NCBI GenBank assembly: GCA_029946065.1
Contig: JAQSDU010000015.1
Coordinates: 1 to 64,000, forward strand
Origin: Flavobacterium sp.
GTDB taxonomy: Bacteria > Bacteroidota > Bacteroidia > Flavobacteriales > Flavobacteriaceae
Reading direction: 5' to 3'
DNA: 64,000 nt
Shown: one piece after another, positions 20,881-47,618 of the stretch
Position numbering within the stretch: the first letter of the stretch is position 1
How the letters are laid out: each line of letters begins with the position of its first letter
The notes under the pieces: generated by a model
Databases searched by the model: none
What the model was told of the DNA's origin: nothing
Seen by the model: the letters and a program-made list of their open reading frames with translations, nothing else
Position numbers and translations under genes: made by a program

Positions 20881-21588
20881 CTAATTTTTTCCTAGAGAAT
20901 AAGTGATCCCGATTGTTCCGTTTAGCATTTTGCCGGATAGGTTATCGTTTTCTTCGGCAACATGCCCGTCCCAGGTATGATTCTGGCGATAGTTGTGAAA
21001 AGAACTGAAATCGAAAAAAAGCGCGCTCTTCTTAGAAATACGGTATGTCGGCATAACACCTAATACTAAACCACCAATAAGATCCGGCGAACCAATGGTT
21101 TCGTTTTCGGTGGTTTTAATCGTTTTAAGGCTTCCTAAATTGACACCGCCGTGAAATAGTATATTGAATTTTGGCTCTTCTTTAGCATTATAAAATCGGG
21201 TAAGATTGACCAAAAGTTGTACTGATACCCTGAAGAAACCGGTTTCAAAGGTTTTACTTTTTGTATCCAGATTTTTAAAACGATCAAAACTTATATCGCT
21301 TTTTATGCCATAATTTCTAGAAAAAAAATAAGACGCACCCAACCTAAAAGAATTTAGCGACAATTTTCCAAACGGTCTATTATTAAGTGTCGAATAGTAG
21401 CCATCTTTATATGGACCTACACCATGGCTGTAACCGAATCCTCCCTCTAACCGCCATTTTGTAAAAGTTGATGTGGTGATACTATCGTTTTGTTCCTGCC
21501 CGAAAAACGTATTAAAAAAAAGTAAAAGGCATATTAAAAGTAAGTTGTTTTTCATAAAAATGTGAATTTTAGGTTTGCTTTTCGGCAA
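20881..21588 (-). CDS. Outer membrane beta-barrel protein, function unknown
   Basis: Signal peptide, alternating beta pattern, C-terminal GTIGITYSLGKN. Confidence 0.65.
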   Translation of the reverse strand: MPKSKPKIHIFMKNNLLLICLLLFFNTFFGQEQNDSITTSTFTKWRLEGGFGYSHGVGPYKDGYYSTLNNRPFGKLSLNSFRLGASYFFSRNYGIKSDISFDRFKNLDTKSKTFETGFFRVSVQLLVNLTRFYNAKEEPKFNILFHGGVNLGSLKTIKTTENETIGSPDLIGGLVLGVMPTYRISKKSALFFDFSSFHNYRQNHTWDGHVAEENDNLSGKMLNGTIGITYSLGKN

Positions 21589-21874
21589 ATATATTTTATT
21601 TAATAATTAATTTGACACCTACTTTATAATGGTAACAATTTCAAAACCTTTAATTTTCATTAAGGGCGATAATCGGTGATAAGTTAACCTGAATTATTTC
21701 GATTTTTTACATATTTTTAACCTTAAGTTGTTTGCTAATGCTTGATTTTAAAGCCTTTTTGTTTTTTGAAACTGTATGAATTTGCTGATAAAAAATAATT
21801 ACATATTGTTAATTTTAAGTTAACTTCTGTCCGTTTCGTTTTCATTTATTTTGCTCATTTAAAAAGCAAATACC

Positions 21875-24781
21875 ATGAAAATCCTTTGTTCTTTTATTTT
21901 TATTGTAATCACGCAAATTGCTTTTGGGCAAAACGCTTCTTTAAGCGGTGTTGTAGTTGATGATACCAGTGGACAGACACTGATAGGTGTAAATATTTTT
22001 ATAAAAACCCTCAACCTGAGGACTTCTACCGATCCTGACGGAAAATTTATTGTTCGAAATTTAAAGGCGGGTACTTACGAAGTAGAATTCACCTACATTA
22101 GCTATCAATCGAAATTGATTTCAGAAGTTATTATCAAAGAAAATGAAGATACGGCGTTAAATGTTTCGCTTGCTGAAAAGAAGAATGATCTCGATGAAAT
22201 TGTAATAACGCAAACAAAAGCCAAAACAGAGTCTGTAAAGTCGCTGTTGCTACTTCAAAAAAATAGTGTAAGCGTTTCTGATGGTATTTCTGCCGAAACG
22301 ATAAAACGAACACCCGACAAAAATACTTCGGATGTTTTAAAGCGGATAAGTGGCGCAAGTATCCAAGACAATAAATTTGTTATCATTAGAGGTTTGAATG
22401 ATCGTTATAATACTGCCCTCTTAAATGGAGCACCATTACCAAGTTCAGAACCGGACAGGAAAGCTTTTTCATTTGATATCTTTCCGTCTAATATGTTGGA
22501 TAATCTGATAATTACTAAAACAGCTTCACCCGATTTACCGGGAGAATTTGCCGGAGGTGTAGTGCAGATTAATACTAAAGCGGTACCGGATAAGGATTTC
22601 CAGTCGGTAACAATTGGTACTAGCTACAATACTATTACGACTTTTAAGGAGCAAAAAACATACGAAGGTTCATCTACCGATTGGTTAGGATTTGACAATG
22701 GCACTCGCGATTTTCCTTCCACAGTGCCGTCAACAGAGATATTTGGCACGCTTTCCGATCAAGACAAAGCCAATTTAGCCAAAACATTTGAATATGACTG
22801 GAGTATCAAGAGCGCTAAATTCAAACCAAACACCAACTTCCAATATTCCATTGGAAGACACTTTGAGTTTAATGAAAAAACGTTTGGTGTTTTGCTTTCT
22901 TTATCGAACAATAAAACCAATAATTACAATATAATCGAGAGAAACGATTATGATAATCCTGATCCAAAACTTCCTTCGGTATTAACCAGTCATTTTAATG
23001 ATCAAAATTATACAGAGCAAGTATTAACGGCTGCCCTGGCAAATTTTTCATTGAAATTCAATGAAAACAATACAATTAGTTTTAAGAATATTTTGAGTAT
23101 TAATTCTACTGATTTAGTGGTAGAACGCTACGGACAAAAAGATGTAACCGACACAAGGTTTATTGATGCCAATGTGAGATGGTTTACAAGCAATCAAATC
23201 TATTCAGGGCAACTTAATGGAGATCATTATTTTTCCCAGCCTAAAATAAAAGTGCAATGGACTGGTTTCTATAGCAACATTAAGCGTTCTATTCCGAATT
23301 TAAGAAGAAACATCTATTCGATTGCCAATCCGGAAAGTACCGATCCTGCAGAGACTGTTCCGTATGCAGCAATTGCTAGTAATAATGGTGGGCCAGATTA
23401 TGGTGGTGGAATGTTCTTTTCTGAAAACAAAGAAGATATTAGTGGTGGAAAACTTGATTTGTCTAAAAAATTCAATATCGGTGAATCGTTCATCAACGAA
23501 TTTAAAATGGGTGGATTTGCACAAATAAGAAAACGAGATTTTTTCGCCAGGCAATTGCAGTATAATGCGCTAACAAATAACGGTAATTTTAATTATGACC
23601 TATTGACCTTGCCTGATGCTGACATCTTCACGAAAGAAAATATGGGTGAGATTTCTCCGGGAGTGGATGGTTTTACTTTGTTTGATTTTACAAAATTTAC
23701 CGATACTTATAAAGCGGGATCTAAATTATATGCCGGCTATGCCATGTTGGACAATAGGTACAAGAAATTCAGGTTGGTTTGGGGTGTGCGTTTAGAAAGT
23801 TACAGACAAACCATCGATTCAAGGCTTACAGAAACTGAATATCTTGCCTTGGACCAACAGCAAAATGATCTCTTGCCATCCGCTAATTTCATATACGCAA
23901 TTACCGGAAAACAAAATTTGAGGTTGAGTTTCTCAAAAACACTTAACAGACCTGAATTTAGAGAGTTAGCGCCGTTTGGATTTTATGACTTTACAAATCA
24001 GTTCTTTACGCAAGGAAATCCAGATTTGAAGATTGCAAAAATAAATAACTACGATGTACGATATGAATACTATCCAGGAAAGGGACAATTGTTTTCGGCT
24101 TCTTATTTTTATAAGAAATTCACTAATCCTATAGAAATTCAACAAGAAATTAACAATAAGACGGTAACATACAGAAATGCCACAAGTGCTGTAAATAGTG
24201 GTATCGAGTTAGAATTCAGAACTTTATTAAGTGCACTTTTTACAAATGAAAATACAACTGTTTTTGATGACATTACGCTTTTCTCTAACGTTGCGATAAT
24301 AAAATCTAAAGTTGATATTTCAAATTTTAATACTGTAACTGATCAAAGTGATCGACCAATGCAAGGCCAGTCGCCATACATTTTTAATGCTGGTGTTCAA
24401 TATATTAATAAAGCTAATGGATGGTCGTTTTCTGCCAATTTAAATCGCGCCGGAAATAGGATCGCATATGCCTCAAGTGAGGTTAAACCCGCTATTTGGG
24501 AAAAGGGAAGGACTTTTCTTGATATGCAGGTGGTAAAATCATTTCAGAACAACAAATTAGAACTAAAGTTAAACATCCAGAATCTATTAGCGCAGGATTT
24601 GATTTTCTACCAGAATAATTATAGGAATACCGCTACTTACGGGTCACTTGAAACGCTTGCAAATCAGGTTTTTACAGGAGATTATCACTATGAAGATGGA
24701 TTCAGTCCCCAGGATGATGATGTGTTATGGCGAACAAAATTCGGAAAGACATTTTCACTTTCGGTTACCTACAATTTCTAG
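21875..24781 (+). CDS. TonB-dependent receptor with CarboxypepD_reg-like N-terminal domain (non-SusC type)
   Basis: Signal peptide; SGVVVDDTSGQTLIGVNIFIK; plug FVIIRGLNDRYNTALLNGAPLPSSEPDRKAFSFDIFPSNMLDNLIITKTASPDLPGEFAGGVVQINTK; barrel ending FSLSVTYNF. Confidence 0.93.
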   Translation: MKILCSFIFIVITQIAFGQNASLSGVVVDDTSGQTLIGVNIFIKTLNLRTSTDPDGKFIVRNLKAGTYEVEFTYISYQSKLISEVIIKENEDTALNVSLAEKKNDLDEIVITQTKAKTESVKSLLLLQKNSVSVSDGISAETIKRTPDKNTSDVLKRISGASIQDNKFVIIRGLNDRYNTALLNGAPLPSSEPDRKAFSFDIFPSNMLDNLIITKTASPDLPGEFAGGVVQINTKAVPDKDFQSVTIGTSYNTITTFKEQKTYEGSSTDWLGFDNGTRDFPSTVPSTEIFGTLSDQDKANLAKTFEYDWSIKSAKFKPNTNFQYSIGRHFEFNEKTFGVLLSLSNNKTNNYNIIERNDYDNPDPKLPSVLTSHFNDQNYTEQVLTAALANFSLKFNENNTISFKNILSINSTDLVVERYGQKDVTDTRFIDANVRWFTSNQIYSGQLNGDHYFSQPKIKVQWTGFYSNIKRSIPNLRRNIYSIANPESTDPAETVPYAAIASNNGGPDYGGGMFFSENKEDISGGKLDLSKKFNIGESFINEFKMGGFAQIRKRDFFARQLQYNALTNNGNFNYDLLTLPDADIFTKENMGEISPGVDGFTLFDFTKFTDTYKAGSKLYAGYAMLDNRYKKFRLVWGVRLESYRQTIDSRLTETEYLALDQQQNDLLPSANFIYAITGKQNLRLSFSKTLNRPEFRELAPFGFYDFTNQFFTQGNPDLKIAKINNYDVRYEYYPGKGQLFSASYFYKKFTNPIEIQQEINNKTVTYRNATSAVNSGIELEFRTLLSALFTNENTTVFDDITLFSNVAIIKSKVDISNFNTVTDQSDRPMQGQSPYIFNAGVQYINKANGWSFSANLNRAGNRIAYASSEVKPAIWEKGRTFLDMQVVKSFQNNKLELKLNIQNLLAQDLIFYQNNYRNTATYGSLETLANQVFTGDYHYEDGFSPQDDDVLWRTKFGKTFSLSVTYNF

Positions 24782-24814
24782 AAATATAAATGATTTTCAT
24801 ATTTAATTAATGAA

Positions 24815-24850
24815 AACCCATTTAGCGCAGCTGCTGAATGGGTTTTTTTA
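24815..24850 (+). terminator. Terminator after TonB-dependent receptor
   Basis: AAAACCCATTtAGC-gca-GCT..AATGGGTTTTTTT hairpin. Confidence 0.75.
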
Positions 24851-25081
24851 TTTACATCGAATTCAAATGTTAAGAAATCCGAAATCCGACAAGCGCACTG
24901 TTTACAATTGGTCGATGAGAAAAACACAAATACTACAGATTTCTCTTAACAAATAATTTACAATTTTAACATTGCATTAAGGTTTTATTAAAGGAATCAT
25001 CTTGTTTATTTAATCACGAAACTTCCTAAAAAAAAAGTGGTTAAGATAAATTTGTCATCAAACAATTAATAATCTACGTTA

Positions 25082-28000
25082 ATGAAAAAAAATTATGTAA
25101 TTGCATTATTGGTTCTGGCAATCAATTTTGTAAATGCTCAAATTGAGCAAACAAGTTATCGGGGCGCATTCGCTCCTGCACCAACTGCTATGTGGACTGA
25201 CAACTGGACCAATTGGAGTCCAAACAGTGAGCCATATACTGACGCGACAACTGTAGTAAATGTTACTGCAGATATTACAACCAATACAACATGGACTACC
25301 GGAAAAACTTACAAACTTACTGGGCTTATCTATGTAAGAAACAACGCAACCCTTACAATCCAACCAGGTGTTGTTATTAAAGGTATTTATACAAATACCG
25401 GTACTGCACTTGTAATTACCAAAGGGGCTAAGATTAATGCAGTTGGAACTGCTAACAGTCCAATCGTATTTACATCTGCAAAAGCAGCCGGGTCAAGAGC
25501 TGCAGGAGATTGGGGTGGAATTATCCTTTTAGGAAAAGCCAAATTTAACCTCAATAATGGCGTTAACAACATAGAAGGTATCACGGCTTCTGTAAATACT
25601 GAATATGGTGGTGGTACTACACCAGATGACAATGATAATTCAGGAACATTAAAATATGTAAGAATTGAATTTGGTGGATTTGTTTTCTCTCCAAACAATG
25701 AAATCAATGGTTTGACTTTTGGTGCTATCGGAAGAGGTACTACAATTGATAATGTACAAGTTTCTTTTTCGGGTGACGACTCTTTTGAGTGGTTTGGTGG
25801 ATCAGTAAACTGTAAACACCTTGTGGCTTACAGAGGCTTAGATGACGATTTTGATACTGATAATGGATACAAAGGAATCATACAATTTGCTTTGGGTATA
25901 AAAGATCCACAAATTGCAGATAATCCTGCAATTTCAACTTCTGAGGGTTTTGAATCAGATAACAATGCTGCTGGTACTGCTTCGGTAAGTCCAAACGATA
26001 ACACTTCTGCAATTTTTACCAACTTCACTATGATCGGACCTTCATACAGAGCTACAATAGCTCCGTCTGTTGCTGTTGCTGCAGGACATGCAAGAGCCGC
26101 TCGTATCAGAAGAGTATCACAACTAAAAGTTTTTAACTCATTGTTCCTTGATTTTAAAAACAGTTTTGTATTTGTAGATGGCGCTACTACAGTAGCTTTA
26201 GCCAATAGTGATGCTTCAGTGGCTACCGGTGTGAAATTTAAAAATAACATCATTGCTGGTACTCCGGACGCTACTTTTTCTGCTGGTGTTAATCCAACTT
26301 CGTTAAATGCATGGTTTACAGCTAGTGGAAATTTATTTCAGTCAGGAAGCACAGGAATCTTAAGTGCACCTTATGGTGCATCAAGCGCTACATATTCAGG
26401 TTTAGATTACCGTCCGGGAACTTTGGCTGCTACTGGCGCTGATTTTGCCGACGCTTCGTTAAACGGATTAGTAATTATTGCTCCAACAACCTTGCCTGCA
26501 GTAACCAATAAAGTATATTGCAAAGGTGATATCGCTCCGCAATTGACTGCTACATTAACTTCAACAGGTGTTTCATTGAAATGGTACACTGTTGCTACTG
26601 GCGGAACTGCTTCTACAACCGCTCCAACGCCTTTGACAACTGTTGTAGGTATTAAGACTTATTATGTATCACAAGTTGATGCTTCAAATGTTGAAAGCGC
26701 TAGAGTTTCGTTAACTGTAACTACAAATGCTTTGCCTACAGAAGTTGTTGGAACAATCGTTGGAACTCCTGCTTCAAACGCTACTTCTGCAACTGCAGTT
26801 GGTAAAAACGTTGGAACTACAAATACTTACACTTATACAATTCCTGCTTTTGAAGACAGTACATTAAAGTATTTGTGGACTGTGCCATTGGGTGTGAATA
26901 TTGTTTCACCACAACCACCATTACAAGATTTTACTAATTCAATTACAGTAAACTACGCAAACGTTGCTCCAGGAGCAGGGCCAGTAGGTTCTATTCAGGT
27001 ACAAGCAGTAAACACTTCTGGTTGTAAAACGCTTGCAAAAACGCTTGCAATCACCAAAGCACTTCCTACTGCTCCAGGTGCTATCACTGTGTACAATAAA
27101 AATGCAGGGTACCCTACACCAACTATTGCTGTTTCAACTTATGGACAATACATGGGTACAACTACACCATTAACATTGGTTGCTACTACTTCTGCTGATG
27201 CAGCTGCTTACCAATGGGAATTGCCTGCAGGCGTAACTTTGTCACTTGGTAACGTAACTCCGGTAACGACTACTGTAATTTATACTGCATTACCATTTTT
27301 AAGCCCAAGTACTGCGCCATCAACGGTAGGAACTAAATATTGGGAAGTTACCAACAAAACTTACAACAGTGTTGATGTAAATGGTGTTCCAACCAATATT
27401 GTGGTATCGACTGCTGTTCAAAAAATCTTCGGATCTGGTGCTTACGGTGCAACGACATCACAACCTTATGCGCCATATGGTACAGTTATCACAAGTAATT
27501 TAAATACTATCTTGGTTAATTTTGCTGGTGTAAACAATCCAACTACTACTGCATTATACTTTGGCGTTAAAGCTAAAAACGGTGTTGGTTTATCTACTAC
27601 ACTTAATACAACAAACACAGACGTAGTTGCAAACGCTAACATTCCAGGTTTGTTTGACACTACTTACAATGAAGTATATACAGCACCAGTACCTCCTAGT
27701 ACCAATGCTACTTCTGTAATCACTGTTTCTGGTACAGCTGTTAAAACTTCAAAACTGAAAAAATTAACCGCTGCTTTACCTGCTGCTCCGGCTGCATTGA
27801 AATTGACTAACAATGCTATCAGTACTGTAACTGGTGTAACTGTTGTGACTTCTTATATTGGTACTACAACGCCACTTACATTGACTGCTACAGCTTCTAC
27901 ATCGGCTTCTTCTTATTCATGGGAATTGCCTGCTGGTGTTAACCAACTTTCTGGTGGTAATTCAAATGTAATTACAATCAACTTTGCTGGTGTTGCTCCG

Positions 28001-29098
28001 GGAGTAACTTCACTTTATTTAGGAGTTAAGTCTGTTAACGGTATCGGTTCTTCTGTAACCAATAACAGTGCTTTAACGCCTGCAACTGCATCTACTGCTA
28101 AAGTATTGAAAGTTACAGCTGCTTTACCAGCTGCTCCACCTGCATTAAAATTGACTAATGATGCTATCAGTGCGTCAACAGCTGTTGTAATTGTAAGTAA
28201 ATATATCGGTACTTCAACGCCGCTTACATTAACTGCTACACCATCGGCTACAGCTTCTTCTTATACTTGGGAATTGCCTGCTGGTGTTAACCAACTTTCG
28301 GGTGGTACTAGTAATGCAATCACTGTAAACTTTGCTGATGTTGCTGCTGGAACAACTTCATTATACCTAGGCGTGAAAGCGGTAAATGGTGTTGGTTCTT
28401 CTGTAACGAGCAATAGCACTGCAACTCCTGCAACTGCTTCTACTGCTAAGTTATTAAAAGTTACTGCTGCCGTTCCTGCTGCTGTTACTGCTGTTACAGG
28501 TCAAATTACTTTGATCGCAAGCAACAGTACAATTAGCTATACAATGACTGCTTCTGCTTATGCAAATTCATACATTGTTACCGCTCCTGCTGGTGCTGTT
28601 GTAGTTTCTGAAAACAATGCTTCTAATACTTCTAACGTATTGGCAACTGCTGACTTAACGTTTTCAGTAACTTATCCTTCGAATTTCTTAGCCAATGCTG
28701 CTAATCCTAAAACAATTGCAATAACATCTGTGAATGGAGTTGGAAACAGCCTTACTAACAAAGTGCTTAATTTAACTTCAGCTGCGACATCAAGAATGTC
28801 TGATGTAGCTTCAGAAGAAGTTGTGAAAGAAGTTTTAGTTTCTTCAACAAATATTTTCCCTAATCCTGCACAAGATGTTGTGACTATCGAATTGACAGCT
28901 CAAAGAGCAGGTTCTTTAGAAATGACTATCTATTCTTTCAATGGAAATGTTGTAGGTAAATCTAAAGTTGTTGAATTACAGGAAGGTGTAAACACTGTTA
29001 AGCAAGATGTATCTTCTTTGGAAAAAGGAATATATGTTGTGAGATTTGTAAATACAGCTAACGGAGAAGTGATCACTAAAAAGATCATCAAAAACTAA
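25082..29098 (+). CDS. Large T9SS-secreted protein: N-terminal beta-helix-like region, tandem Ig/PKD-like repeats, type A sorting domain
   Basis: Signal peptide; LTIQPGVVIKG...GDWGGIILLGKA...YGGGTTPDDNDNSGTLKYVRIEFGGF...DDDFDTDNGYKG; repeated WELPAGV/GVKSVNGIGSS modules; FPNPAQDVVTIEL...GIYVVRFVNTANGEVITKKIIKN. Confidence 0.85.
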   Translation: MKKNYVIALLVLAINFVNAQIEQTSYRGAFAPAPTAMWTDNWTNWSPNSEPYTDATTVVNVTADITTNTTWTTGKTYKLTGLIYVRNNATLTIQPGVVIKGIYTNTGTALVITKGAKINAVGTANSPIVFTSAKAAGSRAAGDWGGIILLGKAKFNLNNGVNNIEGITASVNTEYGGGTTPDDNDNSGTLKYVRIEFGGFVFSPNNEINGLTFGAIGRGTTIDNVQVSFSGDDSFEWFGGSVNCKHLVAYRGLDDDFDTDNGYKGIIQFALGIKDPQIADNPAISTSEGFESDNNAAGTASVSPNDNTSAIFTNFTMIGPSYRATIAPSVAVAAGHARAARIRRVSQLKVFNSLFLDFKNSFVFVDGATTVALANSDASVATGVKFKNNIIAGTPDATFSAGVNPTSLNAWFTASGNLFQSGSTGILSAPYGASSATYSGLDYRPGTLAATGADFADASLNGLVIIAPTTLPAVTNKVYCKGDIAPQLTATLTSTGVSLKWYTVATGGTASTTAPTPLTTVVGIKTYYVSQVDASNVESARVSLTVTTNALPTEVVGTIVGTPASNATSATAVGKNVGTTNTYTYTIPAFEDSTLKYLWTVPLGVNIVSPQPPLQDFTNSITVNYANVAPGAGPVGSIQVQAVNTSGCKTLAKTLAITKALPTAPGAITVYNKNAGYPTPTIAVSTYGQYMGTTTPLTLVATTSADAAAYQWELPAGVTLSLGNVTPVTTTVIYTALPFLSPSTAPSTVGTKYWEVTNKTYNSVDVNGVPTNIVVSTAVQKIFGSGAYGATTSQPYAPYGTVITSNLNTILVNFAGVNNPTTTALYFGVKAKNGVGLSTTLNTTNTDVVANANIPGLFDTTYNEVYTAPVPPSTNATSVITVSGTAVKTSKLKKLTAALPAAPAALKLTNNAISTVTGVTVVTSYIGTTTPLTLTATASTSASSYSWELPAGVNQLSGGNSNVITINFAGVAPGVTSLYLGVKSVNGIGSSVTNNSALTPATASTAKVLKVTAALPAAPPALKLTNDAISASTAVVIVSKYIGTSTPLTLTATPSATASSYTWELPAGVNQLSGGTSNAITVNFADVAAGTTSLYLGVKAVNGVGSSVTSNSTATPATASTAKLLKVTAAVPAAVTAVTGQITLIASNSTISYTMTASAYANSYIVTAPAGAVVVSENNASNTSNVLATADLTFSVTYPSNFLANAANPKTIAITSVNGVGNSLTNKVLNLTSAATSRMSDVASEEVVKEVLVSSTNIFPNPAQDVVTIELTAQRAGSLEMTIYSFNGNVVGKSKVVELQEGVNTVKQDVSSLEKGIYVVRFVNTANGEVITKKIIKN
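27770..28465 (+). repeat. In-gene tandem repeat, 348-bp (116-codon) period
   Basis: GCTGC(T/C) T/GTTA/CC(T) boundary motif recurs at 27770, 28118 and 28466; intervening units highly similar at DNA level. Confidence 0.8.
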
Positions 29099-40288: not shown

Positions 40289-43200
40289 TTATTTCTTTAT
40301 CACCCGAAGTGTCTTCTGATTGCCGCCTTGTTTAACAATAATGTTATAAATACCTGACGGATAATTATCTCCCATTTTCTGGTTTTTCATTTCGGATGTA
40401 CTTGATTGGTAAATTTCGATAAGTTTTCCGACCATATCATACACTTTAACTTCAATTTGATCTTCACTTGCCGTTTTAAAATTCAACTGTAAAGCAGATG
40501 TGAACGGATTTGGATAGGCGACCACTTCAAATACATCGGATAACAAATCTACAGCCATCCTCGGAAGGTCTGTGGGACAAGTAATTTTTGTCAAAATCAC
40601 AGTTTTAGAAGCCGAAAGTCCAAAGGCATTTCCCGATTTGATGACCAGACTCTTATCCGAAAGTGAAAATGCCGCCGTTCCTGAATATTGAATATTGAAA
40701 TTGGTATCAGGTGTAATCAGCGCATTGGACATATTGAACGGAAATGCAGCAGAAGTGACAATAGAACCAGCTGGAGCGGTAATGGAATAATAGTTTGCTC
40801 CAACAGGTGCTGACACGCTGTAATCATATCCGGCGGCCCGGTTACAAACCGAGAACGTACCATTGAGTATGGATATGCCACCCGGAAGTCCTGCAGTCAC
40901 CGTCAATAGTTTTGCAGTACTGACTGCGTTAGGAGCTGCATTGACAGTTGCGGAAGTGCCGATACCGTTAATGGCTTTGACGCCAAAAATAAAAGAAACA
41001 GTAGCTGAACTTGTAACTGAAACAGAAACTAAATTTATGTAAATGAATGGATCTACAGAAGTCAATCCGGCAACTGTCAAACCATTTTCGTCTGTTCGCG
41101 TTACTCCGGCAGGTAATTCCCATGAATAAGAATTTGCTAATGGAGACACTGCAGCAGTCAATTTTAATGTTGTGGGTTTTCCGACATACTTGCTTACAAT
41201 AGTGAGAACTGTTCCAAAATCTGTCAACGTTAGCGTTGCAGGAGCGGCAGGTACTGTCGTGTTGAGCCTTAATATCTTAGCAGTTGAGGTCGTCAAAGGC
41301 ACTAAAGTAGCGTTATTGGTTACAGAACTTCCTACTCCGTTTGCTGCTTTTACTCCAAATTGCATAAAAGGAGCGCTGACATTCTCAGTAAATTTTACAA
41401 AAATAAACGGGTCGATACTGCTGTCCGAGGTATCGATTGTTCCGTTATTAAGCGCTGTAACCCTGACTACTCCTGCCGGCAGTTCCCAAAGATACGAATT
41501 TGCCAAAGCAGAAATTCCGGCAGACAATCTGTAAGTGCCTTGTTGCCCAATAAATTTGCTAATCGTGGTAATTGCTGTAGTTGTAATGCCATCATTAAGT
41601 GTTAATGGAGCAGGCGCTATAGGAACTGTAATGTTCAGTCGTAAAAGTTTTGCTGTTGATGCCGTTGCCGGTGTAAGAGCAGCATTATTAGAAGCAGAAT
41701 TCCCAACACTATTAACTGCTTTCACGCCAAATTGCAAATAGGGAAGTGCTACGTTGTCAGTGAACTTTACATATATGAATGGTTCAGCACTCGTAGTACT
41801 GTTGGTCGTAGTTCCGCCGTTAATAGCTGTCATTCGTGTTACGCCTGACGGCAATTCCCAAAAATAGGAAGTCGCCAGAACTGAAGTAGTAGCAGATAGC
41901 CTATATGTACCTTGTTGCCCTATCAATTTGCTAATTACAGTTATTGGGTCGGCAGTTATGCCATTATTTAATGTTAAAGTCGCAGGAGGTACGGGTACTA
42001 CTGCGGTGAGCGTAATCAATTTTGCTGTGGAAGTTGTAGTCGGGTTGCTCAGCGTATTGTTATTTGTTACTGAAGTGCCCACGCCATTTTTCGATTTAAC
42101 GCCAATTCGCAATGCATATGTAAGTACTCCGCCCGTTGTTGTGTAAGAATAGGTATTCAAACTGGTCACTCCAGAAAAGTTGACAAAAATAAATGGTTCA
42201 GTACTCGAGGTACTTGCTGTAATTGTTCCACCATTAAGTGCTGTTACTCTGTTTATGCCTATCGGTAATTCCCATTCATAAGAAGTGGTCGATGCCGTTG
42301 GTGTGACAGATAATCTTAAAACAGTATTTGTTCCCATGTAAGCACTAAAATTATAAATAGCCGTTGCATCAGTTCCGTTATTCATCGTTAGCGCTGGAGC
42401 GACTGGTACCAACCTATTGAAAACGGCCGACGGCTTGAGTGATGAATTGCAGCCTAAGCTGTTGATTGTCTGCACATAAATCACCAATGGCGTTGTGGCG
42501 GTAGTAGCTAAAAACTTAACATAAATGATATTACCAGGCGTAATCGTCAACCCAGTTCCGGTATCGGTACTCGACGAAGTCACTCCAACAGGAAGTATCC
42601 ATTTGTAAAGTAAATTACTGTTATTAACGGGAGCGGCTGTAAGTTTTAAGGCTGTATCAGTACCAACATAAATTCCAACCGCAGTAATCGGTGTGGTTGG
42701 CGTAGCAGGTGCAGTCGCATTGTCATCAGTGAGAATTAAAGATCCCGGAATTGGCAGGATTACATCGGTGATAATGACTGCATTTGAAGTAATACTTCCA
42801 CAATCTGAGATGATCACAACTTTATATTTCGTACCCGTCTCCGGTATTATAGGATCTGTTTTGGTAATGTTTAATATTGAAGAAGTCACGCCTGCATAAT
42901 TCTCATTTGCGGTCAACAATGTCCATGTAGTGTTATCTGTAGGCAATTGAGAATACCATTGGTAAGTAGCGGTTGACGATCCTGAAACCACAGATAATGA
43001 AACAGCAGCACCAGTCGCTTTACAAATTAAAGCATTTGATGGCTGTGTTGTAATGGTGTTGGTATTTATTGTCAATGCTAAAGTTTCGGTATGACAGCCG
43101 TTTAAGTATATATAGTTGCCGCTTTGGGTATAAGTGTTGCTATTTCCTGCAGTCCAGGTATATGAGTCGCAAACAGCTACTGTTGTCGTATGCGAAGTAG

Positions 43201-46200
43201 TTGGTGTGATTGTAAGGGCTAAAGTTTCCGTATGACATCCATTTACAAAAGTGTAGTTGCCGCTTTCCGCATAAGTATTGCCGTTTCCAACTGCCCATAG
43301 ATAACTATCGCAGGCACTAACTGTAGTTGTATTTGTAGTTGATGGCGTAATAGTTAATACCAATGTTTCCGTATGGCATCCCGTAACCACATTATAAGTA
43401 CCCGATGTTGTATAATCCTGATTATTTACTAGCCAATGATACGTGTCACAAGCCGAAGCTGTAGTAGTATTGCTTGTATTTGTTGTCACCGTTACCGTTG
43501 TCGCTGTTGAAGTTGCTGTGCATCCATTGTCGCTGGTTATTGTTACAGAATAATTCCCCGAGGTTGTCGCAATAATGCTTGGGGTTGTAGCACCATTAGA
43601 CCACAAATATGATACTCCAGCGCTCGCTGTCAAAGTTACATTACCTCCTGAGCAGAAAGTGGTTGGACCGCTAGTCATAATGGTAGCAGGAGTGTCGCAT
43701 GAAATTCCGGTAACCAAAAAATTATCAATCCTACTCGTACCACCTGTTGCAACAGTGCCGTTATTGATAGATGTCGTATTAACGTTTACAACCCTTAAAT
43801 AAATGGATGATTTGTTATTTAATCCTGAGATTGTAGAAAGGTCAAATGATTTAACAGAAACTGTTTTCGGACTACCTGTGTTGCTCCATGAGTCATTTGT
43901 GATGGTATAAGAACTGCCAAAATCTGTAAAGGCAGTTCCATTAAGACTGTATTGAATTTTAAATGTAGATGGTCCGGTGTTGCTTCCGGTCTGGTCTAAA
44001 CTGATGGCAATGCTATGATAATTAGAAGTATTGACTTTAAACTGATAATAATCTCCCACTCCCCAATGTTCAGAAGTTACCGATTTTGAGGAAGCATTTC
44101 CGGCAGCATTTGACCATACCGTCGCAGCATTAGCATGCGTTGCGCTGAACAAACTTCCTGCCGTTTGCGATCCCTGGTCTGCTAAAGCGGAACCTGTTAC
44201 TGTGGCATTTGCACCTGTATTTGTAGTGGTTACACCTTCAAAAGTCCATTTTGCGACTGAAGTCAATACAACCTGAACCTGACTAATGACTGGTGCAGCA
44301 TTATAATTTTCATTACCCGACTGTGAAGCTGTGATTGTAGTGGCACCAGATCCTACTATGGTAACGGTATTACCACTGATGGTAGCAACCGCGGTATTCG
44401 AGCTCGTATAACTGATTGGCAAGCCTGAAGAGGCATTGAGCGGTAACGAAAACGTTCCGTCTGCCGTAGTTTTATCTGTTAGCACATTGAATGTGATTGT
44501 TTGGTCGGCTTTATTGACTGTTAAGGATTGGGTAGCATTTGCAGCGGCATTGTAATTTGAGTTTCCGGTTTGTGAAGCGGTAATAACAGTAGTACCAACA
44601 CCTACAATTGTAACTGTTCCGTTTGCAGCAACCGTTGCCACAGCTGGATTACTTGTTAAATAACTAACAGTTAATCCTGAAGTTGCAGTAGAAACTGCAC
44701 TATAAGGTGCATCGCCATAAGTTTTGGTAACAAGTGATGTTAATGCACTTAGTGTTTGGTTTGCTTTGCCTACAGTCAGGCTTTGTGTCAATCCCGTCGC
44801 TGCATTGTAATTGCCATTTCCGCTTTGTGAGGCAGTGATAGTCGTAGTGCCTGCGCCAACGATGGTCACTATTCCAGATGCAGACACCGTGGCCACTCCT
44901 GGCGACGAACTGGAATAAGTTACTGTCAGTCCCGAAGTTGCTGTTGTCGCAACACTATAAGCTGCATCACCAAAAAATTTGCTCTCCGTCAATGCAATTC
45001 CGTTGATGATCTGGTCTGCTTTATTGATTGTTGCGGTCAGACCTATAGGTTGCGTCAGTGAATAATTTACTGTTGCTGTTCCGGTAAGTGTATAACCTGA
45101 AGCGGTAATCGGTTTATTGGTTCCAGCATTCGCATTTGCAAAAGTATAGGAAGGCGCAGAACCACCTAAATTAACGTCATCCGTACCTACTATTCCGTCT
45201 AAGGTGGCTGTTCCTGTAACTGAAGCCGCTGCTGTGGCGTCATAGGTTTTATCAACGCCAATGAGGCCCGTAATCGTTAATGTTTTTTGCGCAACACTGC
45301 TGTTGGCTGTAGCAATGGTTATAGTTGTTGCACCATTGCTAGTCATCGCAACATTCCCTGAATACGATCCAACTGTAGTTGTAGCAGACAGACGGACATA
45401 CACTGTTGTAGCTGATACATTGCCCGCACCACCAACTGTAATTGAAGTTGCATACCCACTGTTTGAGGTTAAGGAAACCTCAAAACCTGACGGTGCGGTA
45501 ACTAAGATGCCTTCCGTTAATGACTGACCACTTAGGCTAAAGGAAGTTGCAGCGCTTGCAATACCATAAGTAGTATTCAAAGAGGCTAAGGCACCACTAA
45601 TGAAAATTGTCGGTGTTGTGGCAATGATATCGGCAGCCAAGACTGTCGGTTGTAGCAGAAAATAATTTCCTGCAGCCAATCCGGTTAGAGAATATCCAGT
45701 AACATTTACAGGGATATTCGTTCCCACTGCTGAACTAGTGAAAGCGGCAACCGGGGTTCCTGTTAATATAACATTGGCTTCATCGCCTGAAACGATTCCC
45801 GATAAAGCAGCTGTACCAGACAAAGTAGCGTTTGTATTTCCATCATAGGATTTGTTGTTTGCTGTCAGACCCGTAATTGATAAACTTTTAGCCGTGACGG
45901 TTAATGTCTGTGTTGCAGATGTTGCATTATAATTATCATTTGAGATTTGGGAAGCTGTAATTGTAGCTGTTCCAACGCCTACAATGTGAATATTTCCTGA
46001 TATGATATCTGCAACTGCTGTATTGTTGGACGAATAAGTAATTGCATTTATTCCTGATGTAACCGAGCTAGCTCCAGGAGCATAATCTGCAGTCCCATAT
46101 ATTTTGGTATTGGTCGAAGCAAAAACAATAGATTGATTGGCTTTATTTACGGTGATAGTCCCACTAATGTAACTCACAGTAGCATAATTTGAAGCGTTAT

Positions 46201-47476
46201 AAGTGGCACCACTGCCGTTTGTCACTGCCGATGGCGTAATACTTCCTGTATAAACTGCGGGCGAAACAGTGCTTAAAGTAGCCGATGTATTCGCTGCTGC
46301 GCCTGTACCATAACTATTAAAAACTGTTGCTCCTGTTCCTAAACTATCAGTGTATAATAAGCCTGACACAGTAAAATTGACAGAAGAGCCATTTGTTAAA
46401 GTTGCTCCATATGTTTTAGAGACGCCATTCGCTGTAATAGTCAGACCTGTTGCAGCAGAATTTATCGTTAATGTAGCTGATGCGCTTCCTGCATTGTAAC
46501 CTGCGGCTGCCGCTTGGTTGGCTGTAATAGTTGTATTGCCCACACCTTTTATTGTCACAACTCCAGAATTGTTTATCGTAGCAACAGCTGTATTAGCGCT
46601 AGAATAAGTAATTGCACCTGTACTATCTGAAGAGGCTATCATCGTGAATCCGTTAGCATCGCCGTAGTTTTTTGTAACATTGCTGAAGTTATTAAATGTA
46701 GGGTTAACAGCAGGAGCTGCAGCAGTTATACTAAAATTATCAATTCCAACTGCATGGTCGTTACCTGAATCATTGAGATCGATCCACCGAATCCATAGTG
46801 TAGTAGCGTTTGTCCAATTTAAGGAAGATAAGGTTCCACCTAAATTTGCTACTTTCCCCGCAACATTTCCAACTACCGCAGCAGCGGTTGCGGTTGCGAC
46901 GGGCGTTGTAAAAGTAAATGAGCTTGCAGTGCTGTTCCAAGTACTTACACTTGCAAAAGTAGCACCAAAGCCATATTGCACGGTCAGTGTTTGAGCATTG
47001 GCGTTCCCTCCGTTTCTCCACTGTTCCCCGTCAAAATTTATTGTGGCAGAATTTACAGTACTTCCTGTAGTATTTGTTACAGAAAAAGCTAAATATCCGG
47101 CTGCTGCGCCGCTTCCCGGGCTTCCCCAATATGTACCACCTGACGCAAAACTTCCCAGAGATCTTTCGGTATTTCCAGATGTGGCACCATAACTGTTGTA
47201 GGTGAAATTTCCGGTACTTCCGGTTTCAGCACTGTAACTGGTTATTGCGGCGTTGGCACCATTGTAAAGGTACCAGCCCGTAATTGTGGAATTATTTGTC
47301 CACACAATTGATGTAGCGCTAGTTGCCGGTAAGCCATCAAAGTTTTGCGAATAAGTTAGATTTCCTGAAGTAATTGCAACTTGTCCGAAACTTTTCCCGG
47401 AGACAATTAAACATAAAAAAGCAACACACAAAAAGAGGTTTAAAGCCGATCTCTTAAAAAGTAAATTATTTTTCAT
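40289..47476 (-). CDS. Giant (~2395 aa) T9SS-secreted multi-repeat surface protein/adhesin
   Basis: Signal peptide (MKNNLLFKRSALNLFLCVAFLCLIVSGKSFGQ), MBG/YDG-like repeats, Big-like TITASQSGNxNYNAA repeats, 47-aa Cys-pair repeats, WELPAGV repeats, type A sorting domain (VVAYPNPFTSALQLNF...LRVIKK). ORF track start 47509; ATG at 47476 preferred. Confidence 0.9.
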   Translation of the reverse strand: MKNNLLFKRSALNLFLCVAFLCLIVSGKSFGQVAITSGNLTYSQNFDGLPATSATSIVWTNNSTITGWYLYNGANAAITSYSAETGSTGNFTYNSYGATSGNTERSLGSFASGGTYWGSPGSGAAAGYLAFSVTNTTGSTVNSATINFDGEQWRNGGNANAQTLTVQYGFGATFASVSTWNSTASSFTFTTPVATATAAAVVGNVAGKVANLGGTLSSLNWTNATTLWIRWIDLNDSGNDHAVGIDNFSITAAAPAVNPTFNNFSNVTKNYGDANGFTMIASSDSTGAITYSSANTAVATINNSGVVTIKGVGNTTITANQAAAAGYNAGSASATLTINSAATGLTITANGVSKTYGATLTNGSSVNFTVSGLLYTDSLGTGATVFNSYGTGAAANTSATLSTVSPAVYTGSITPSAVTNGSGATYNASNYATVSYISGTITVNKANQSIVFASTNTKIYGTADYAPGASSVTSGINAITYSSNNTAVADIISGNIHIVGVGTATITASQISNDNYNATSATQTLTVTAKSLSITGLTANNKSYDGNTNATLSGTAALSGIVSGDEANVILTGTPVAAFTSSAVGTNIPVNVTGYSLTGLAAGNYFLLQPTVLAADIIATTPTIFISGALASLNTTYGIASAATSFSLSGQSLTEGILVTAPSGFEVSLTSNSGYATSITVGGAGNVSATTVYVRLSATTTVGSYSGNVAMTSNGATTITIATANSSVAQKTLTITGLIGVDKTYDATAAASVTGTATLDGIVGTDDVNLGGSAPSYTFANANAGTNKPITASGYTLTGTATVNYSLTQPIGLTATINKADQIINGIALTESKFFGDAAYSVATTATSGLTVTYSSSSPGVATVSASGIVTIVGAGTTTITASQSGNGNYNAATGLTQSLTVGKANQTLSALTSLVTKTYGDAPYSAVSTATSGLTVSYLTSNPAVATVAANGTVTIVGVGTTVITASQTGNSNYNAAANATQSLTVNKADQTITFNVLTDKTTADGTFSLPLNASSGLPISYTSSNTAVATISGNTVTIVGSGATTITASQSGNENYNAAPVISQVQVVLTSVAKWTFEGVTTTNTGANATVTGSALADQGSQTAGSLFSATHANAATVWSNAAGNASSKSVTSEHWGVGDYYQFKVNTSNYHSIAISLDQTGSNTGPSTFKIQYSLNGTAFTDFGSSYTITNDSWSNTGSPKTVSVKSFDLSTISGLNNKSSIYLRVVNVNTTSINNGTVATGGTSRIDNFLVTGISCDTPATIMTSGPTTFCSGGNVTLTASAGVSYLWSNGATTPSIIATTSGNYSVTITSDNGCTATSTATTVTVTTNTSNTTTASACDTYHWLVNNQDYTTSGTYNVVTGCHTETLVLTITPSTTNTTTVSACDSYLWAVGNGNTYAESGNYTFVNGCHTETLALTITPTTSHTTTVAVCDSYTWTAGNSNTYTQSGNYIYLNGCHTETLALTINTNTITTQPSNALICKATGAAVSLSVVSGSSTATYQWYSQLPTDNTTWTLLTANENYAGVTSSILNITKTDPIIPETGTKYKVVIISDCGSITSNAVIITDVILPIPGSLILTDDNATAPATPTTPITAVGIYVGTDTALKLTAAPVNNSNLLYKWILPVGVTSSSTDTGTGLTITPGNIIYVKFLATTATTPLVIYVQTINSLGCNSSLKPSAVFNRLVPVAPALTMNNGTDATAIYNFSAYMGTNTVLRLSVTPTASTTSYEWELPIGINRVTALNGGTITASTSSTEPFIFVNFSGVTSLNTYSYTTTGGVLTYALRIGVKSKNGVGTSVTNNNTLSNPTTTSTAKLITLTAVVPVPPATLTLNNGITADPITVISKLIGQQGTYRLSATTSVLATSYFWELPSGVTRMTAINGGTTTNSTTSAEPFIYVKFTDNVALPYLQFGVKAVNSVGNSASNNAALTPATASTAKLLRLNITVPIAPAPLTLNDGITTTAITTISKFIGQQGTYRLSAGISALANSYLWELPAGVVRVTALNNGTIDTSDSSIDPFIFVKFTENVSAPFMQFGVKAANGVGSSVTNNATLVPLTTSTAKILRLNTTVPAAPATLTLTDFGTVLTIVSKYVGKPTTLKLTAAVSPLANSYSWELPAGVTRTDENGLTVAGLTSVDPFIYINLVSVSVTSSATVSFIFGVKAINGIGTSATVNAAPNAVSTAKLLTVTAGLPGGISILNGTFSVCNRAAGYDYSVSAPVGANYYSITAPAGSIVTSAAFPFNMSNALITPDTNFNIQYSGTAAFSLSDKSLVIKSGNAFGLSASKTVILTKITCPTDLPRMAVDLLSDVFEVVAYPNPFTSALQLNFKTASEDQIEVKVYDMVGKLIEIYQSSTSEMKNQKMGDNYPSGIYNIIVKQGGNQKTLRVIKK
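43060..43487 (-). repeat. Tandem 141-bp (47-codon) repeat, three copies, inside giant T9SS gene
   Basis: GTATGACA/GTATGGCA motif at 43089, 43230 and 43371, exactly 141 bp apart; encodes ACDSYxWxxGN..YxxSGxYxxxxGCHTETLxLTI. Confidence 0.85.
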
Positions 47477-47618
47477 CCGAGTTATAATTTCTAATTGATT
47501 ATACCTCACAATATTAAAACGGATTTTTATTAAAAAAGTAATTTGAATGATATGAAATTATTATATAAGTGTAACCATTTAACTCGTTTGGAATATCTAG
47601 TGACATTAAATCAAATAA

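Follow-up and report, generated by a model that had tools for sequence, protein, structure and literature searches.

The receptor and partner genes of a Flavobacterium sp. window (the window being the whole 64-kb stretch of DNA that was analysed) probably form an ElpS/PUS-type scavenging unit under Pho control, in which a secreted partner would capture a phosphorus-containing ligand and feed it to a TonB-dependent receptor (TBDR). This reading was built on the conserved adjacency of the two genes, on homologues induced by Pi depletion, and on the linkage of phoBR and pst genes to the family as well as to homologues of the window type. The promoter repeat, the T9SS signal, the predicted beta-helix fold and a set of invariant acidic residues complete the evidence.

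The receptor and its T9SS-exported partner

The two open reading frames were found at the coordinates given by an earlier sequence-only reading, together with all the motifs quoted in it, and domain searches bore out its description of a non-SusC TBDR followed by a 1338-aa T9SS protein (Table 1). Pfam and NCBIfam profile searches of the TBDR revealed a CarbopepD_reg_2 domain (aa 23-111) and a plug (aa 131-228), followed by the beta-barrel. The SusC/RagA model TIGR04056 reached 51 bits, far under its cutoff of 368, and the below-cutoff likeness of the receptor was to TIGR01782 TonB-Xanth-Caul (219.7 vs 310 bits). The domain search gave no match to an STN signalling domain in the TBDR, whose N-terminus carries CarbopepD_reg_2 instead, and a signalling receptor of the FecA or STN type was rejected because of the absence of STN. 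A PDB sequence search with the TBDR and the partner returned no relative of either protein, the sorting domain alone giving a weak hit.

Table 1. Coordinates of the features of the receptor-partner locus in the window
Feature	Position	Strand	Details
Pho-box-like direct repeat	21807-21825	.	TGTTAATTTTAAGTTAACT; two TTAAC/GTTAA half-sites, 11-bp period, 68 bp upstream of TBDR start
TTTG of Bacteroidota-type -7 element	21850-21853	+	24 bp past the + strand repeat (21808-21825)
TBDR gene	21875-24781	+	968 aa; non-SusC; 300 bp before partner gene, same strand
Weaker 11-bp-period repeat cluster	24945-24992	.	upstream of partner; up to 10.7 bits
Partner gene	25082-29098	+	1338 aa; T9SS-secreted; signal peptide MKKNYVIALLVLAINFVNAQ, no lipobox
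ElpS-like beta-helix domain	25244-26356	+	aa ~55-425 of partner
Acidic motifs DDSFEWFGG and DDDFD	25775-25855	+	partner aa 232-258; 22 residues between motifs
Ig_7 (aa 472-549) and PKD_6-like repeats	26495-28414	+	PKD_6 in three stretches, best aa 1048-1111
T9SS type A C-terminal sorting domain	28853-29089	+	aa 1258-1336; PF18962 4.6e-15; TIGR04183 41 bits, cutoff 23

In the partner, a Sec signal peptide was called by eye, and aa 1 to ~460 gave no Pfam, NCBIfam or PDB-sequence match. The sequence-only reading had placed the features of a functionally unassigned Bacteroidota family in the N-terminal half of the protein; the domain is there, but its extent is nearer one third. The Ig_7/PKD_6 region is probably a stalk, and the lengths of the homologues, from ~545 to 1975 aa, vary across this region. 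With a signal peptide, a type A C-terminal domain (CTD) and a T9SS in the genome (translocon gene SprA, 2809 bits), the partner has the features of a type A T9SS cargo. A T9SS signal was carried by the partners at 41 of 80 Bacteroidota loci, so the T9SS form is common. Two further T9SS proteins were observed, a 2406-aa cargo with YDG repeats, encoded where the polysaccharide cluster of the window ends (40289-47509, minus strand; GTG start as listed), and a DOMON-domain protein encoded between receptor and partner in the relative G026 (L055:10930-11727).

An AlphaFold2 model of partner aa 55-400, made with 95 sequences, reached a pLDDT of 94.8 and a pTM of 0.94. Foldseek matched it mainly to right-handed beta-helix proteins (GH28, PL6, tailspikes and alginate epimerases), with zero matches for the domain at E<=0.001, best TM-scores of about 0.3-0.4 and identity of about 10%. 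The Foldseek picture obtained with an earlier AlphaFold model (33 sequences) was equally weak, and since both models gave the same result no enzyme family can be assigned. The fold of the domain is thus confidently predicted, without a close relative in the PDB. It shares its fold class with the right-handed beta-helix enzymes (GH28, PL3, PL6) and phage tailspikes, but it differs from them in the lack of any Foldseek match at that threshold and of any catalytic family match. A known polysaccharide lyase or hydrolase was rejected, there being neither a catalytic family match nor a close structural homologue. Tandem copies of the beta-helix domain, two or three in number, were observed in the Proteobacteria Pseudoalteromonas, Alteromonas and Indioceanicola (L166, L167, L169), and G010 (L052) has two copies.

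The six acidic residues D232, D233, E236, D254, D255 and D258 were identical in 82/82 paired members, Proteobacteria among them. The spacing of the two motifs that hold them, 22 residues, is about one turn of a beta-helix, so the acids may stack, and they may hold a metal. Both Asp-rich segments had been read as metal-binding loops: DDDFDTDNG does belong to the invariant acidic set, but DDNDNSG is only partly conserved (D185 in 79/82, N186 in 71/82 and S187 in 80/82).

Pairing across genomes and linkage to phosphate genes

Retrieval with the N-terminal domain of the partner alone yielded 80 Bacteroidota loci, and a TBDR of the same subfamily was adjacent in 72 of them, with chance expectation far lower. 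The receptor lay immediately upstream on the same strand in 63 of the paired loci (median gap 124 bp), downstream in five and on the opposite strand in four. Eight loci had no adjacent TBDR, three of them being cut by a contig end just upstream. The relation was also found starting from the receptor: among 60 relatives, all full-length TBDR hits adjoined a partner domain, genes cut by contig ends excepted, and the unpaired receptor hits covered the N-terminal part only. Exactly one further copy of the domain and one further full-length relative of the TBDR are present in the own genome of the window, and they are neighbours of each other (L021); the domain of this FII-type copy is 37% identical to that of the window partner (E 1e-38). 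TBDR and partner distances were correlated (Mantel r=0.65, n=82), the permutation maximum being 0.23. Gammaproteobacteria and Alphaproteobacteria have the reverse order, with the partner before the receptor, and in Sphingomonas and Indioceanicola T2SS genes follow the two, as published for Caulobacter elpS (PMC2996285). These data indicate that the pairing is real and old. The conserved adjacency across genomes that had been proposed as a check on the sequence-only reading was therefore found, and the claim of a beta-helix-like secreted partner dedicated to a non-SusC TBDR is supported.

Some loci showed other arrangements. In four relatives the receptor and partner genes are separated by a GH1-like gene that lacks a signal peptide (L051:9334-10719, L052:9625-10857, L053:4439-5665 and L060:2549-3742). 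Pfam GH1 was matched in L051, where the nucleophile motif ENG is intact; the motif is altered in L052, L053 and L060, as judged by eye. This gene is absent from the window, and a full GH1 homologue is encoded on another contig of the own genome (G000:C4:385390-386724). The helix-domain genes of L067-L070 had no same-subfamily TBDR within the fetched 20 kb; three of them have a common conserved neighbourhood of their own, and they are candidates for the FIII type.

The partner domain was located at most 6 kb from phoB in 40 of 54 relatives, PhoB orthologues being defined at E<=1e-55, a threshold that gave exactly one in each of the 54 (the next regulator of the own genome scored 2.8e-33). In eight relatives a PstS-type gene accompanied the pair at a distance of no more than 13 kb. 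The linkage extends to homologues of the window type. In G014 a window-type T9SS partner adjoins phoB-phoR, and in G035 the C-terminal end of a partner is followed by phoB-phoR, the contig being broken there. The locus L071, a member of the well-supported 11-member clade of the window, has the order phoR-phoB, receptor, T9SS partner (58% identical). The Alteromonas locus, by its annotation, reads phoB-phoR-phosphate-binding protein-2OG oxygenase-partner-TBDR. At L021, the second pair of the own genome, a response regulator and a histidine kinase (phoBR) are encoded divergently from the pair, with a glycosyltransferase-like gene beyond, and this gene order is that of F. johnsoniae PUSIV (Fjoh_0541-0546).

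Within the 64-kb window itself no phoBR or pst genes were found, and PhoX was not found in the own genome. The nearest neighbours of the window pair are polysaccharide genes, with Wza/Wzc-like genes on its left and a flippase and glycosyltransferases on its right. The insertion into an EPS locus pointed out by the sequence-only reading is thus real and recurs in the same-genus relatives G010 and G003; it is not general in the family, however, where phoB/phoR are the most frequent neighbours within the order sampled. A gene for a 235-aa outer-membrane-like protein (20881-21588, minus strand) is divergent from the receptor gene and has a conserved counterpart at the equivalent position in L051, L052 and L053; the protein has no Pfam or NCBIfam match.

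An 11-bp-period repeat in the receptor promoter

Analysis of the regions upstream of the pair receptors revealed a common half-site, [GC][TG]TAA[CT]A, forming a TTAACA direct repeat. Its signal at a period of 11 bp was 14.1 bits, vs 8.8 in shuffles and about 9 at other periods, and little or no repeat signal was detected at periods of 9, 10, 12 and 13 bp. A PWM was trained on 64 loci with the clade of the window left out and applied to both strands of the window, where the repeat before the TBDR was the best site (21807-21824, 13.89 bits). When the 32 gene upstreams of the window were ranked by the PWM, that of the TBDR came first and that of the partner second. A score as high as 13.89 bits occurs about once per 64 kb in random sequence; it is not significant by itself, and the claim therefore rests on rank, position and conservation. 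Scores over 12 were obtained for 2 of 15 unrelated TBDRs of the own genome. Strong sites preceded 6 of the 11 held-out TBDRs of the window clade (p=0.004), and L052 and L053 have identical half-sites at -70. The spacing between the box and the -7 TTTG had peaks at 13, 24 and 35 bp in 62 pair promoters, the peaks being 11 bp apart.

Of 11 pstS genes, 7 also had a strong PWM site in their promoter, located at -59 to -71, vs 4 of 39 control promoters (p=0.0008). The strong box was missing from the remaining 4/11 pstS promoters and from 7/8 PhoX promoters, and its presence in just one of the eight makes PhoX promoters a poor test. The PhoB box of E. coli has the form of an 11-bp direct repeat. No published Flavobacterium Pho box was found among the papers searched, and the TTAACA 11-bp-period repeat, phased with the -7 element, is a candidate for the Bacteroidota Pho box.

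Relation to described systems and proposed function

The sequence-only reading had presented the pair as a candidate undescribed system, a claim that did not survive comparison with the literature. CC0170 ElpS and the TonB receptor CC0171 of Caulobacter crescentus form a published pair in a Pi-starvation context (Le Blastier 2010, PMC2996285), and F. johnsoniae has the FI/FII lipoproteins with their TBDTs, PUSIII Fjoh_3856/3857 and PUSIV Fjoh_0545/0546 (PMC8115612). FI (PUSIII) is the most abundant exoprotein of F. johnsoniae, Pi depletion strongly induces the PUSIV TBDT and the FII lipoprotein, and a relationship of FI-FIII to Caulobacter ElpS has been reported (PMC8115612). Since the gene order of L021 is that of PUSIV and FI-FIII are related to ElpS, the system is already described. 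ElpS is an outer-membrane lipoprotein with T2SS-dependent release, encoded ahead of its TBDR; deletion of elpS did not lower phosphatase activity, CC0171 is not Pi-induced, and intracellular Pi showed no change (PMC2996285). These Caulobacter results count against the scavenging reading, as does the lack of phoBR and pst genes in the window. Deletion of Fjoh_3856 or Fjoh_0546 left colony expansion unaffected (PMC7807042), which argues against a role in motility.

The window pair shares with ElpS, FI and FII a homologous beta-helix domain and an adjacent TBDR of the matching subfamily, homology having been computed against the PUSIV-type lipoprotein of the own genome and the tie of ElpS to FI/FII taken from PMC8115612. 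As in ElpS/CC0171, a surface protein lies beside a TBDR in a Pi-starvation context, and the ElpS-TBDR-gsp layout was seen in Sphingomonas and Indioceanicola via homology to the own-genome paralogue. Unlike elpS, the partner gene of the window comes after that of the TBDR, and its product lacks a lipobox and has Ig/PKD repeats plus a T9SS sorting domain. The likeness to FI/FII is that of a TBDT with a related surface protein, and the own genome also has a PUSIV-type pair beside phoBR (L021); the difference is that FI and FII are lipoproteins, whereas the partner in the window, with its 1338 aa, is a T9SS cargo without phoBR linkage in its own genome. Having a T9SS CTD in place of a Cys lipobox, the partner was filed as a variant and not as an ElpS/FII lipoprotein, and the T9SS-exported form is the unusual aspect of the window pair. 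With SusC/SusD and PusC/PusD the pair has in common the logic of a TonB-dependent channel with a dedicated surface partner, but the partner lacks a SusD-family domain and the TBDR falls under the SusC/RagA cutoff. A SusCD identity was rejected on these two grounds.

In the Pho-controlled scavenging unit as we infer it, phosphate shortage would lead PhoB to activate the window copy, probably through the 11-bp-period repeats. The T9SS would export the partner, which would be retained at the surface via its sorting domain and not by a lipid anchor. The beta-helix domain, possibly holding a metal ion by its acidic set, would capture (or trim) a phosphorus-containing ligand, for example a phosphorylated polymer or phosphodiester, and pass it within a putative physical complex to the TBDR, for import and delivery to periplasmic phosphatases. 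The capture logic proposed in the sequence-only reading is plausible in this respect. It is possible, but doubtful, that the ElpS-like domain is a general TBDR capture module of Bacteroidota and Proteobacteria, unrelated to SusD, which would take phosphorylated polymers via an acid-held metal and reach the surface by a route set by lineage (lipid anchor, T2SS-linked or T9SS), the T9SS form being stalk-mounted.

The location of the pair inside a polysaccharide cluster would also suit a role for the neighbouring exopolysaccharide, with the beta-helix protein binding or cleaving polysaccharide, the receptor recovering the fragments and phosphate being irrelevant. Flippase and sugar-modifying genes adjoin the partner in G010 and G003, the weak structural matches are mainly to polysaccharide lyases, GH28 and phage tailspikes, and the GH1-like gene separates receptor and partner in four relatives. 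This explanation is nevertheless rather unlikely, as further members of the window clade sit elsewhere, some of them beside phoBR, no polysaccharide lyase or hydrolase family was matched, and the wider family tracks phoB and pstS and not polysaccharide genes.

The invariant acids on an enzyme-rich beta-helix fold could alternatively point to a partner acting chiefly as a metal-dependent hydrolase or lyase on extracellular phosphorus compounds, with the receptor importing the product without direct handover. Overproduction of ElpS in Caulobacter did raise extracellular phosphatase activity, but refolded or precipitated ElpS had none (PMC2996285), which points to binding or an accessory role more than to catalysis; with no match to a known catalytic family, we consider an enzymatic partner unlikely. 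Import of a metal or another nutrient, with membership of the Pho regulon being lineage-restricted, is very unlikely. The Asp-rich motifs are potential binding sites for Ca2+ or other metals, metal chelates are typical TBDR cargo, and the helix-domain genes of L067-L070 lack a same-subfamily TBDR in the examined loci; however, the association with phoB/pst is family-wide, from Flavobacteriales to Gammaproteobacteria, and the published induction followed Pi depletion and not N or Fe limitation (PMC8115612).

The passage of organic phosphorus over the Gram-negative outer membrane is poorly known, and ElpS/FI/FII, which rank with the most abundant exoproteins that Flavobacterium makes under Pi starvation, have posed a functional question since 2010. 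In Bacteroidota the partner and one TBDR subfamily are almost never apart, and Proteobacteria keep the pairing. With this pairing, the invariant acids and a predicted fold that has no close counterpart among solved structures, the question becomes that of a defined two-protein unit, and the 11-bp-period repeat provides a candidate Pho box that is directly testable.
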